Of a stretch of DNA of 64,000 nt, positions 5,716 through 12,716 are shown piece by piece. Made by a program: the position numbers and the translations under genes. The notes under the pieces were generated by a model, which was not told where the DNA came from, did not search any database, and saw only the letters and a list, made by a program, of their open reading frames with translations. Positions within the stretch are counted from its first letter, which is position 1, and every line of letters begins with the position of its first letter. Origin of the DNA: Halorientalis sp. IM1011 (GTDB lineage Archaea; Halobacteriota; Halobacteria; Halobacteriales; Haloarculaceae); NCBI RefSeq assembly GCF_001989615.1, contig NZ_CP019067.1:2232001-2296000 (forward strand), in the 5' to 3' direction.

Positions 5716-6537
5716 TCACGTCCGGACTTTCCGCATCCAGTCGTCCAGTGCCTCACGATACCCGGACTTGTCAGGCTCCGGCAGCGGATCCAGGGCGTTG
5801 AACTGCTGCGTGATTGCATCACGGGCACGGGATTCGAGGTCGTCCGACAGAATCTCGTCGCCGGCTGTACGCTTGTGTGCGACCAGGTCCGCGACCAGTT
5901 CGGGGTTGCCGCCGTCGACAGCCTCGGCGAGTGCGAACACGTCGGCTTCGATATCCTCGTCATCGAGAACGTACTGCGCGCCGAGTAGCCCACGATAGAC
6001 GTAGAGGAAATTCTTGGCGACAGGCGTGTACCCCTGTTCTTTCTCCGGGTCGAGGTGCTTGTAGTAGTTCGACTTGGCCATGCCCAGGTAGGCGTGCGGG
6101 ACGTTCATCGGGAGGTAGTCCCGGATGAGTTCCTGCAACGCGTCCATCTCCAGGGGCATTCCGTTCATGACCGTCGGGGCCTCGAAGACCAGTTCGACGA
6201 CATTGTAGTTGGCCTTCGCCAGCAGCGAACCGAACTTCCGGAGTTCGTAGCTCCGGAGGTCGACCTCGGGGTACTCCTCGAAACCCTCGGTGACGCCGTC
6301 CATGTTGACGGTCACCTCCTCGGCCGGCGTCTCCAGATACGCGTACTCCGCGGCGGGCGCGACGTGGATGCCGCGCACGTCGATGTCACTGTCGGCACTG
6401 TCGAAGCCGTAGACGTGACTGCCCGTAACCGCGTAGAATCGCGGACGGTGCTGGGTTCCTTTCCGAGCGACCGCAGTTTCGATGAACTCGCGAATCTCTG
6501 CGGCACTGTACTCCAACTCCAGATCGTCGATCGTCAT
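5716..6537 (-). CDS. RlaP-type nucleotidyltransferase (RNA-repair-associated pol-beta fold)
   Basis: 273 residues. The polymerase-beta nucleotidyltransferase signature is at residues 39-53: GSHVYGFDSADSDIDVRG, with the G-S pair and the D51/D53 metal-binding aspartates. Flanking features fit the RlaP/PF10127 family: an N-terminal helix, a beta strand after the motif, then a helical C-terminal half with AYLGMAKSNYYKHL. The family is known from bacterial RNA-repair neighbourhoods beside RNA ligases (RtcB and others) and is thought to add or mend nucleotides at RNA ends. Here it lies on the same strand as, and downstream of, the Ro60-like gene and the tRNA array, which supports an RNA-end-processing role. 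The substrate (tRNA 3' ends, Y RNA) is inference. Confidence 0.85.
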   Translation of the reverse strand: MTIDDLELEYSAAEIREFIETAVARKGTQHRPRFYAVTGSHVYGFDSADSDIDVRGIHVAPAAEYAYLETPAEEVTVNMDGVTEGFEEYPEVDLRSYELRKFGSLLAKANYNVVELVFEAPTVMNGMPLEMDALQELIRDYLPMNVPHAYLGMAKSNYYKHLDPEKEQGYTPVAKNFLYVYRGLLGAQYVLDDEDIEADVFALAEAVDGGNPELVADLVAHKRTAGDEILSDDLESRARDAITQQFNALDPLPEPDKSGYREALDDWMRKVRT

Positions 6538-6591
6538 TCGTACTCACCTCGTTTCTCGTCGTCCCTATTCACATCAACCGACCGGGGAGCA

Positions 6592-6894
6592 TCAACCGTT
6601 GGCCACCAGTCGGTCGACGGTGTCGACACAGACCGCGTCGGAGAGCCCCTCGCGAAGATCCTCGACGGCCGCGCCGCTCTCGATGGTGACGGCGACGGTC
6701 ACGAGCGTCGCGGTGAACCGCGGTTCGAGGTCGCGGAGGCCGTCGATAGTGACCGCGCGGACGCCCTCGATGCGACCGAGCCGGCACTCGGCGTCGGTCG
6801 CGAGATCATCTCCGGCGCTGTCGGGGATTCGGACGGCCAGCACTGCCGTCACGGTCGTCGTGGTCTGTTCAGTATCGGTGTCTGTGATTGCCAT
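6592..6894 (-). CDS. 100-residue alpha/beta protein in the Ro60 locus
   Basis: The start is the ATG at 6894, preceded by an excellent ribosome site (GGAGGTGA); the frame stays open upstream, but that stretch lies across the tRNA-Gly gene and is not coding. Predicted order is beta (TVTAVLAVRIP), helix, beta (VRAVTIDGL), beta (FTATLVTVAVTIES), helix (AVEDLREGLSDA): a ferredoxin-like or ACT-like fold, often RNA- or ligand-binding. It sits 54 bp upstream of the RlaP-like gene and just after the tRNA-Gly and Ro60 genes, all minus strand, so is probably in the same transcript. No family recognised. Confidence 0.75.
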   Translation of the reverse strand: MAITDTDTEQTTTTVTAVLAVRIPDSAGDDLATDAECRLGRIEGVRAVTIDGLRDLEPRFTATLVTVAVTIESGAAVEDLREGLSDAVCVDTVDRLVANG

Positions 6895-6922
6895 GTCTGT
6901 CACCTCCGTTGGAGAGCGGCGC

Positions 6923-6966
6923 GAGAATCGACCAGTGCGAACCGATGGGTTCGCAGGGTGATTCTC
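6923..6966 (-). other. Two-part stem-loop upstream of the 100-residue gene
   Basis: An outer helix (GAGAATC with GATTCTC) and an inner 8-bp helix (TGCGAACC with GGTTCGCA) are separated by a small internal loop and closed by four nucleotides. It lies between the tRNA-Gly gene and the start codon at 6894. It could be a processing signal, a translation-control hairpin, or a relic of a tRNA T-arm. The seven-by-eight pairing is exact. Confidence 0.55.
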
Positions 6967-7039
6967 GGTCGGTGTGAGCGGCGAGACGCGACGCGTCGAG
7001 CCGCGAGCCGCGCGGTCGACACCGCGAGCCACACTCCGA

Positions 7040-7114
7040 TGCGCGAGGAACGATTCGAACGCTCGTCTCGGCCCTGGCGAGGCCGCGTGATCGGCCAAGC
7101 TACACCACTCGCGC
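7040..7114 (-). tRNA. tRNA-Gly(GCC)
   Basis: Acceptor helix CTCGCGC/GCGCGAG is perfect; T-loop TTCGAAT; anticodon stem CGGCC/GGCCG. The anticodon loop reads TCGCCAG, so position 33 is C instead of the near-universal U. A73. It lies between the Ro60 gene and the 100-residue gene. Confidence 0.85.
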
Positions 7115-7139
7115 GTACTTCGAAAAATTGGAATCCGCA

Positions 7140-12159: not shown

Positions 12160-12190
12160 TCGCGCTGACCATACGATCAGCACCCGCGAA

Positions 12191-12271
12191 CGCCGCGGCC
12201 CGGAGTCGAACCGGGAGTCCTCTCGGAGCTCGCGTAGCAGGCGAGCGGGATTACCAGTTCCCAGCCGCGGC
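12191..12271 (-). tRNA. tRNA-Ser(GCT)
   Basis: Type II; acceptor GCCGCGG/CCGCGGC perfect, G73, T-arm CCCGG/CCGGG, anticodon stem CTCGC/GCGAG with loop CTGCTAC. Confidence 0.9.
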
Positions 12272-12276
12272 AGAAG

Positions 12277-12349
12277 TGGGTCACAGTGGATTCGAACCAC
12301 TGGCCTGGCGTCCCAAACGCCAGATATTCGGCCGCTACACTAGCGACCC
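12277..12349 (-). tRNA. tRNA-Pro(TGG)
   Basis: Acceptor GGGTCGC/GTGACCC with one wobble, A73, T-arm AGTGG/CCACT, anticodon stem TGGCG/CGCCA, loop TTTGGGA. Confidence 0.9.
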
Positions 12350-12556
12350 ACGGATAGTTGTGTGTCTGTACAACTGTGCGACGGCGAACGACTGTACCGC
12401 AACTGTCCGCCGTCGCGAGGCGGGCGTACTTCGGGGTATCCCTGGAATGTCCATCGGACCATGCAGGTTGCAGACCCTTCCGGGCCCAGCACCGCCGACC
12501 GCGAACCGCTCGCGTCGGGCAGTGTCTGCCTGCCTCGATGAGCATCCCACTTCGAA
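12350..12556 (-). other. 207-bp structured gap in the tRNA array
   Basis: No tRNA fits. Pairings seen are GTTGT/ACAAC (about 12356-12374), an 8-bp helix GCGACGGC/GCCGTCGC (about 12378-12417), and a stem GCAGAC/GTCTGC (about 12469-12515) over a GC-rich centre. It lacks the Y-type TCGA and TTTTC loop. A further small RNA or degraded tRNA cluster is possible. Confidence 0.45.
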
Positions 12557-12630
12557 CGCCGACGCCGGGATTCGAACCCGGGTCACGGCCGTGACAGGAC
12601 CGTATGCTAGCCGAGCTACACCACGTCGGC
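12557..12630 (-). tRNA. tRNA-Asp(GTC)
   Basis: Perfect acceptor GCCGACG/CGTCGGC, G73 as expected for Asp, T-arm CCGGG/CCCGG, anticodon loop CTGTCAC. Confidence 0.92.
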
Positions 12631-12640
12631 AGTGTGGCAG

Positions 12641-12716
12641 TCGCCCCGGCCGGAATCGAACCGGCGACCTCGGGCTCCAAAGGCCCGCGTCCCTCGCCAG
12701 CGGAGACTCCGGGGCT
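12641..12716 (-). tRNA. tRNA-Gln(TTG), intronless
   Basis: First tRNA in transcription order. T-arm GCCGG/CCGGC, anticodon stem CGGGC/GCCCG with loop CTTTGGA; acceptor AGCCCCG/CGGGGCG has six pairs and an A1-G72 mismatch. No intron, unlike some haloarchaeal tRNA-Gln(UUG) genes. Confidence 0.85.

Follow-up and report, generated by a model that had tools for sequence, protein, structure and literature searches.

A tRNA array of the haloarchaeon Halorientalis sp. IM1011 harbors, beside a gene encoding a Ro60/TROVE protein, five Y-RNA-like RNAs with tRNA-like parts. The locus is probably a mobile cassette in which a Ro60-Y RNA ribonucleoprotein with tRNA-shaped adaptors acts, together with replacement tRNAs, against tRNA damage. 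Positions refer to the window, that is, the whole 64,000-nt stretch analyzed (genome coordinates 2232001-2296000 of a 3.78 Mb genome). Thirty-one tRNAs, the five Y RNAs, Ro60/TROVE, a small protein and an RlaP-type nucleotidyltransferase share the minus strand of the window, in agreement with the initial annotation, which had listed a 30-tRNA array, five Y-like RNAs, Ro60, one more tRNA, the small protein and RlaP on one strand.

Ro60 and Y RNAs are known from animals and bacteria. As far as could be found, no archaeal Y RNAs have yet been described, and it is these RNAs that are new here; no report of them was recovered from the open-licence literature, which covers few subscription papers and lacks the main studies of bacterial Y RNAs, so that their absence in print is unproven. 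The association of a tRNA array with TROVE is not new, since Morgado and Vicente (2019; PMC6333295) already reported the same locus (CP019067.1, 2239040-2244716, 29 tRNAs). According to the accessible portions of their paper, 20 of the 29 archaeal clusters have a TROVE gene, and plasmid and provirus calls are given as well. These portions are silent on Y RNAs, on what Ro60 does, on RlaP and on the placement of Ro60 between tRNA-Arg and tRNA-Gly.

Y RNAs of two permuted forms

Four of the Y RNAs are hairpins lying between the array and tRNA-Arg(tcg). All four follow one plan (type i): the lower stem leads to the 5' loop GUCGA, the upper stem has UUCCUUC after it, and the 3' loop is of the kind GGUUUUCC; the internal loop is conserved as GUCGA/UUUUCC. 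Y RNA 1 (9263-9347, 85 nt) is a short form carrying the T-arm mimic GCGGGTTCGACTCCCGC, and Y RNA 3 (9016-9100, 85 nt) a short form devoid of T-loop sequence. Y RNA 2 (9109-9249, 141 nt) is a long form in which the T-arm precedes a closed acceptor hairpin, CGATAGGCC-ATCC-GGTCTATCG, and Y RNA 4 (8813-9004, 192 nt) is a long form with T-arm, closed acceptor and the D-arm-like GTGTAACCTGGTATCAC. Y RNA 5 (11058-11211), also type i, was recovered by model R1 and by motif scan between tRNA-Ala and tRNA-Tyr inside the array, and has the upper stem GTAGTGGAG/CTCCACTAC with the loop GGTTTTC. Among these, Y RNAs 1 to 3 are members of the covariance models that they match (R2, 93.0 bits; R1, 137.6 bits; and R2, 77.1 bits, respectively), and Y RNAs 4 (R1, 80.0 bits) and 5 (R1, 35.4 bits, E-value 2.9e-7) are not. 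R1-like matches resembling Y RNA 5 also occur inside the arrays of loci L061, L063 and L092.

The existence of these elements, proposed in the initial annotation, was borne out by scans, by covariation and by the R1 match of the fifth. A scan on stem geometry alone was run over the 1.3 kb preceding Ro60 in 37 loci and the window; it returned 110 hits, compared with an average of 20 for dinucleotide shuffles. A scan on a loose 5' loop pattern, with the 3' loop optional but raising the score when matched, recovered 108 elements in the window and in 35 of 36 related loci, 87 of them with an exact GUCGA; it found none in L064 or HGTV-1. From the 108 elements, 34 long (alignment A1, from which R1 was built) and 24 short ones (A2) were picked for variety, and RNAalifold recovered the two Y stems unprompted in both alignments. 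In A1, 98.7% of the cells are paired and 17 of 22 pairs have changed on both sides, with 118 double-change cells as compared to 37.9 in shuffled alignments and 0 to 17 when the partners were slid.

Outside the Y stem, type i RNAs carry parts of a tRNA body. The T-arm mimic is present in all 51 long RNAs and in 26 of 57 short ones. In 50 of the 51 long RNAs it is followed by a hairpin of 5-9 bp, which a mean of 3.7% of shuffles reach; in the exception (L094, 9340) the script chose the T-arm itself, and the sequence beyond does form such a hairpin. This hairpin resembles an acceptor stem whose 3' and 5' strands have been linked via a short loop. A D-arm such as GTGTAATTGGTAACAC comes next in 14 of the 51, as counted by eye. 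With the body thus ordered T-arm, acceptor and D-arm, the Y stem occupies the place of the anticodon arm.

The opposite arrangement, type ii, was found in the loci of three TROVE-bearing genomes with no R1 match (G022, G233 and G328). Type ii genes start and end like a tRNA, with the anticodon arm swapped for a Y stem. The insert runs through upper stem, U-rich loop, lower stem, hairpin loop, lower stem, CGA and upper stem, after which comes UUCCUUC, UUACUUC or CUACUUC; the CGA, UUUU and UUCCUUC/UUACUUC motifs are common to both types. A full type ii descriptor gave 33 hits; on mononucleotide-shuffled sequence, in two rounds, it gave no hit. Eight hits (L062 9623, L066 9521, L067 9520, L068 2266, L081 7934, L094 9418, L095 9519 and L135 5200) were removed as junctions of neighboring type i RNAs or chance matches. 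The 25 genes kept come from 19 of the 36 named loci plus HGTV-1, L131, L132, L133, L137 and L186, and model R3 adds L075 as a further carrier (127.3 bits). In the type ii alignment (A5), 97.5% of the cells are paired and both sides have changed in 14 of 27 pairs (39 cells versus 4.5). The window itself has no type ii gene, its best R3 match (26.9 bits) being a junction.

One type ii gene, that of HGTV-1 (NC_021328.1, L097 9022-9153), is annotated in GenBank as 'tRNA Asp (gtc) + Intron' and is, judging from its sequence, better read as a tRNA-Y RNA chimera. More such chimeras are probably hidden in the gaps of other arrays. A second, weak Y-like hairpin (15.8 bits) occurs at 8945-9016 of the same record.

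Both permutants stand side by side in about half of the haloarchaeal loci examined. On balance, we lean slightly towards the view that each of these Y RNAs is a tRNA in which a Ro60-binding stem has taken the place of the anticodon arm, the two types being circular permutants of a single fold. Their joint presence would then make the tRNA origin of Y RNAs directly visible. Type ii, having open tRNA ends, would be matured from the array transcript as tRNAs are (RNase P, tRNase Z, CCA), and the product, a tRNA lacking an anticodon, would bring Ro60 to the tRNA-handling machinery.

Association with TROVE, tRNA arrays and mobile elements

Models R1 and R3 were run, with the stricter filters of Infernal, on 391 Halobacteria genomes evenly drawn from a larger group. 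TROVE occurs in 43 of them. Matches were considered strong at an E-value of 2.1e-10 or better for R1 and at 45 bits or more for R3. Strong R1 matches were present in 40 of the 43 TROVE genomes, always within about 1.7 kb upstream of the gene and on the same strand, and strong R3 matches in 27, including the three without R1. Type i, type ii or both are therefore strongly represented in 43/43 TROVE genomes and in 0/348 of the others. The many R3 matches in TROVE-negative genomes reach at most 35.8 bits and look like ordinary tRNAs; R3 matches below 45 bits were put aside as ordinary tRNAs or junctions on the basis of length and score, rather than one by one. The initial annotation had held that a lack of co-occurrence of TROVE, RlaP and the array in other genomes would refute a module; TROVE does recur with the array, and with Y RNAs, in many haloarchaeal genera.

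The Ro60/TROVE gene of the window (7140-8669, minus strand) encodes 509 residues. Its TROVE (HEAT-ring) domain scores 71.5 bits against a cut-off of 23 (Pfam E-value 1e-19; PHROG 850, E-value 7.7e-52), and the protein aligns to the TROVE chain 9l5y with an E-value of 1.2e-26. Putative residues of the metal-ion-dependent adhesion site (MIDAS) described earlier match the vWA part of 9l5y (DLSGSM/DVSGSM, FTD/ITD); the vWA_Ro60 profile gives 16.3 bits, under its cut-off of 27.7.

ARAGORN predicts 31 tRNAs, 30 at 8733-12716 and one at 7040-7114, which together cover all 20 amino acids and, at 31 tRNAs per 5677 bases, form a tRNA cluster (a minimum of 10 tRNAs at 2 or more per kb). The array proper (9374-12716, minus strand) comprises 29 of them, the outermost being tRNA-Gln(ttg) (12640-12716) and tRNA-Thr(tgt) (9374-9445). 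It includes Y RNA 5 and has a similar order in related loci. Only 23 of the 31 are recovered by the Rfam tRNA model at gathering score, indicating that some array tRNAs are divergent. Compared with the chromosomal tRNA sharing their anticodon, the array tRNAs of the window show 52-75% identity, and the anticodon loop differs from that of the host in 22 of 30; no chromosomal counterpart of tRNA-Trp was found. Acceptor pairing is complete (7/7) in 437 of 463 array tRNAs. With 46 of the 70 tRNA matches of the genome located outside it, the array is redundant.

Position 37 differs recurrently between array and host. Taking the window genome as host, A37 replaces G37 in most array tRNAs for Glu-TTC (27 of 33), Arg-TCG (28 of 29) and Gln-TTG (24 of 27), and in none for Tyr (0 of 26); a second host confirms G37 for Glu and Arg, the Gln-TTG comparison resting on one host. 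The same shift is seen in most His and Leu-CAG array tRNAs (36 loci and the window). A shift in Ser-TGA was dropped, the second host already having A37. Discriminator bases and the 3:70 pair of tRNA-Ala (G-T in 8, G-C in 5 of 13) were left unused owing to an ambiguous end offset in the script. The window array tRNAs are called intronless where several host genes carry introns; host introns were removed by ARAGORN, and some host calls are doubtful.

Two tRNAs bracket Ro60. On the minus strand, tRNA-Arg(tcg) (8733-8809) is the final tRNA ahead of Ro60, with 63 nt between its end and the Ro60 start codon, and tRNA-Gly(gcc) (7040-7114) begins 25 nt past the Ro60 stop. In 27 of 36 loci the closest upstream tRNA is likewise tRNA-Arg(tcg), 54-111 nt off, and in 29 of 36 tRNA-Gly(gcc) lies 12-36 nt downstream; some of the exceptions reflect contig ends or genes possibly left uncalled by ARAGORN. 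No TATA-like box is evident between tRNA-Arg and Ro60 in ten sequences inspected. This absence and the Arg/Gly bracketing suggest tRNA-punctuated processing of one transcript. Ahead of the GGTGA-type ribosome site of Ro60 stands a hairpin such as GGAGTCGCCTGTTGCGGCTCC. In the window it is GGAGCCGT-CTGTT-ACGGCTCC (8679-8699, minus strand), and it is conserved, being detected by pattern in 35 of 38 upstream regions; L090 has a different loop, and the hairpin is not present in L064 or HGTV-1. Self-regulation through this element, with its CTGTT-type loop, is possible. Upstream of tRNA-Gln, the array leader (12717-12850 and its equivalents) contains conserved hairpin-like stretches, and no obvious TATA-like box was seen within 130 nt.

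Several features mark the locus as mobile. Ro60 is 76-96% identical among the loci, and Ro60 genes of 60-80% identity occur on 13 plasmid records, the 11 listed ones being haloarchaeal. In the Ro60 tree, Haloferacaceae, Natrialbaceae and Haloarculaceae are intermixed in the shallow parts. The Ro60s of loci with type ii only cluster with HGTV-1 (support 90/77), beside the type i group (100/99), on long branches that leave the place of HGTV-1 unsure. In the window, the region 14300-48000 encodes TraG/HerA-like, TrbL/VirB6-like and VirB4-like proteins and an extra TFB, a gene content suggesting that an integrated conjugative element adjoins the array. An IS605-type OrfB/TnpB gene is inserted into the array of L061 (5540-6973, minus strand).

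A proposed role in tRNA damage and competing readings

The type i RNAs follow the same plan as YrlA of the bacterial YrlA/Rsr systems, which form RYPER with PNPase (Deinococcus, Salmonella). As described in the accessible parts of PMC8394870, YrlA has an end-paired Ro60-binding stem and a tRNA-like domain (D, T and acceptor arms), and its gene lies beside Ro60. The archaeal RNAs likewise adjoin Ro60, through R1-type genes or, in the three loci without them, through type ii, and have a tRNA-like domain; the end stem with conserved internal loop is found in type i, and type ii has the stem away from its ends. Unlike YrlA, the archaeal RNAs match no Rfam Y RNA family, usually number three to five per locus, where they sit in a tRNA array, and include the oppositely permuted form with an open acceptor. 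From what could be consulted of PMC8394870 and PMC7790460, bacterial Rsr and YrlA tether PNPase for the decay of structured RNA, and Salmonella Rsr and YrlA belong to an operon induced by tRNA fragments. That operon, rsr-yrlBA-rtcBA (PMC7790460), similarly joins Ro60 and a Y RNA to tRNA damage and RtcB, and HGTV-1 resembles it in having RtcB, TROVE, RlaP and a type ii RNA within about 9 kb, whereas the window locus lacks RtcB and has a tRNA array.

A working model can be built on these parallels. Array, Y RNAs and Ro60 would be made as one precursor, from which tRNA processing would excise the tRNAs, the cuts at tRNA-Arg and tRNA-Gly releasing the Ro60 message. In type i the Y stem holds the 5' and 3' ends, and a loop joins the acceptor strands of the circularly permuted tRNA body; in type ii, present at other loci, the acceptor is open and the Y stem loop-closed. 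Ro60 would bind the Y stem, and the tRNA-shaped end would dock the ring on tRNA-handling enzymes, either the exosome, which is the likeliest partner in archaea by analogy with Rsr-YrlA-PNPase, or RNA repair enzymes. The exosome is a relative of PNPase and is present in archaea, which are not known to have bacterial PNPase. Damaged or misprocessed tRNAs might in this manner be routed to decay or repair as the array replenishes the pool, with RlaP, and in HGTV-1 RtcB, as optional repair additions. Judging by the mobility of the locus, its spare tRNAs and its optional repair enzymes, the benefit could be tolerance of tRNA damage, perhaps inflicted by defence nucleases.

Some observations weigh against this interpretation. 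A single transcript is suggested by the common strand, the tight spacing and the lack of a visible TATA-like box from tRNA-Arg to Ro60 only. The T-loop pattern is missing from 31 of the 57 short type i RNAs. An Rfam search of window positions 8640-9400 (Y RNAs 1-4) for Y RNA families, at E-values up to 5, returned only tRNA and tRNA-like families; at gathering score, four phage loci, HGTV-1 and three TROVE loci gave no Y RNA family match either. Marginal R1 matches (27-31 bits) occur in three TROVE-negative genomes (G187, G062 and G351). Finally, because the models were built from RNAs beside Ro60, many of them from the same genomes, the TROVE-positive side of the co-occurrence is partly there by construction, and only the empty negative side is free of this effect.

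The foremost competing reading is in fact a special case of the favored one, in which the damage comes from defence systems: replacement tRNAs and anticodon-less Y RNA decoys would keep translation going despite host tRNA nucleases, with Ro60 protecting or presenting the decoys. We consider this possible, although the less probable form of the proposal. It would account for the mobile setting (13 plasmid records, HGTV-1, conjugation-type genes in the window), for the divergence of the array tRNAs and their 22 altered anticodon loops, and for the usual A37 of Glu-TTC, Arg-TCG and Gln-TTG where the examined hosts have G37. It also finds parallels in the accessible text of PMC10264068, where mycobacteriophage tRNAs evade nucleases through anticodon-loop changes, and in the suggestion by Hughes et al., in the part of PMC7790460 seen, that YrlA could competitively inhibit an anticodon nuclease. 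However, the loop changes have no tie to a known cleavage site, eight of the 30 loops are the same as in the host, and a haloarchaeal tRNA nuclease defence was not identified in this analysis.

That the array merely raises tRNA dosage or widens the isoacceptor set, with Ro60 as a passenger or a checker of array transcripts only, seems unlikely. Intact acceptors and coverage of the 20 amino acids would fit such a supply, and translation efficiency is the explanation favored for tRNA clusters in the consulted portions of PMC6333295, but the array is redundant, and a mere passenger would not explain Y RNAs present in every TROVE genome and strong in none of the others. Far less credible still is that the Y-like hairpins represent tRNA genes in decay and that the type ii RNAs are tRNAs with an anticodon-loop intron. 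Both forms do contain tRNA-like parts, the HGTV-1 record does name an intron, and Morgado and Vicente, as far as their text was available, counted pseudogenes and introns in such clusters (PMC6333295). Against this, all stems covary, the same motifs appear in both permutations, the type ii descriptor is silent in mononucleotide shuffles, and presence is tied to TROVE.

If the favored reading holds, with Ro60 and tRNA-shaped Y RNAs acting on damaged tRNAs, a hitherto unexplained type of mobile tRNA array gains a concrete partner machine. Archaeal Y RNAs tied to Ro60 in every sampled TROVE genome bear on the origin of Y RNAs and on the role of their tRNA-like end, and genetically tractable haloarchaea make the role of Ro60 with tRNAs testable.

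Accessory genes and phage loci

The RlaP-type nucleotidyltransferase of the window (5716-6537, minus strand; PF10127, 100.6 bits against a cut-off of 23, E-value 1.5e-28; PHROG 14344) had been placed in the initial annotation at the core of a module with Ro60, tRNA-mimicking Y RNAs and the array. The latter three do form a conserved module, and the case for RlaP as part of its core is weak. It occurs in 102 of the 391 genomes, 13 of 43 with TROVE and 89 of 348 without, and is thus no commoner with TROVE, from which it lies less than 4 kb away in only four of the 43 genomes (G000, which is the window genome, G002 with one in-frame TAG, G016 and G114). Of the 36 named loci, L084 has it within the array, L090 has it downstream, and L092 has a fragment of it. 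RlaP was accordingly rejected as a universal part and retained as an accessory. Since the four neighboring pairs and HGTV-1 far exceed random placement, it looks like an optional addition. HGTV-1, whose Ro60 is 46% identical, encodes RlaP (E-value 7.2e-36) and RtcB (E-value 1.2e-64) near TROVE, the latter about 4 kb off. The sole RtcB gene of the window genome is at 345170, 1.9 Mb from the locus, so that a ligase would come, as had been anticipated, from elsewhere in the genome.

Between RlaP and tRNA-Gly, an open reading frame at 6592-6894 (minus strand) encodes a protein of 100 residues and is preceded by the strong ribosome site GGAGGTGA, as noted earlier. The protein has no Pfam match, is kept beside Ro60 in 30 of 36 loci, and its reading frame is free of early stops in those loci where it was translated. 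AlphaFold2 predicts a beta-alpha-beta-beta-alpha-beta fold with a predicted local distance difference test (pLDDT) score of 79.8; the top Foldseek match is 2x3d (E-value 2e-4, template modelling score 0.46), a likeness at fold level only. Another protein, of 134 residues (MGLFDTVELYDD...), is encoded within the array upstream of tRNA-Glu(ttc) in L072 (8808-9212) and in 21 more loci. It was not seen in the window, has no convincing Pfam, PHROG or NCBIfam match, and its structure model is poor (pLDDT 66).

Scans of IMG/VR with the HGTV-1 Ro60 returned only HGTV-1 itself, and with the window Ro60 no relative. Four phages were inspected besides HGTV-1, chosen from 95 with a TROVE match, and in each of them TROVE has a tRNA gene at a distance of 6 kb or less. 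One of these phages, Rhizobium phage RHph_TM40, likewise carries TROVE within a tRNA array, with tRNA-Leu 48 nt after it, and has six upstream units with GUUGCGA, several of them with T-arm, closed acceptor and D-arm. It differs from the haloarchaeal loci in that its Ro60 is only about 26% identical and the lower-stem and 3' loop motifs are distinct. These Y-like units, at least six and consecutive, stand ahead of TROVE at positions 4704-5896 of L189 and are unannotated in the record.

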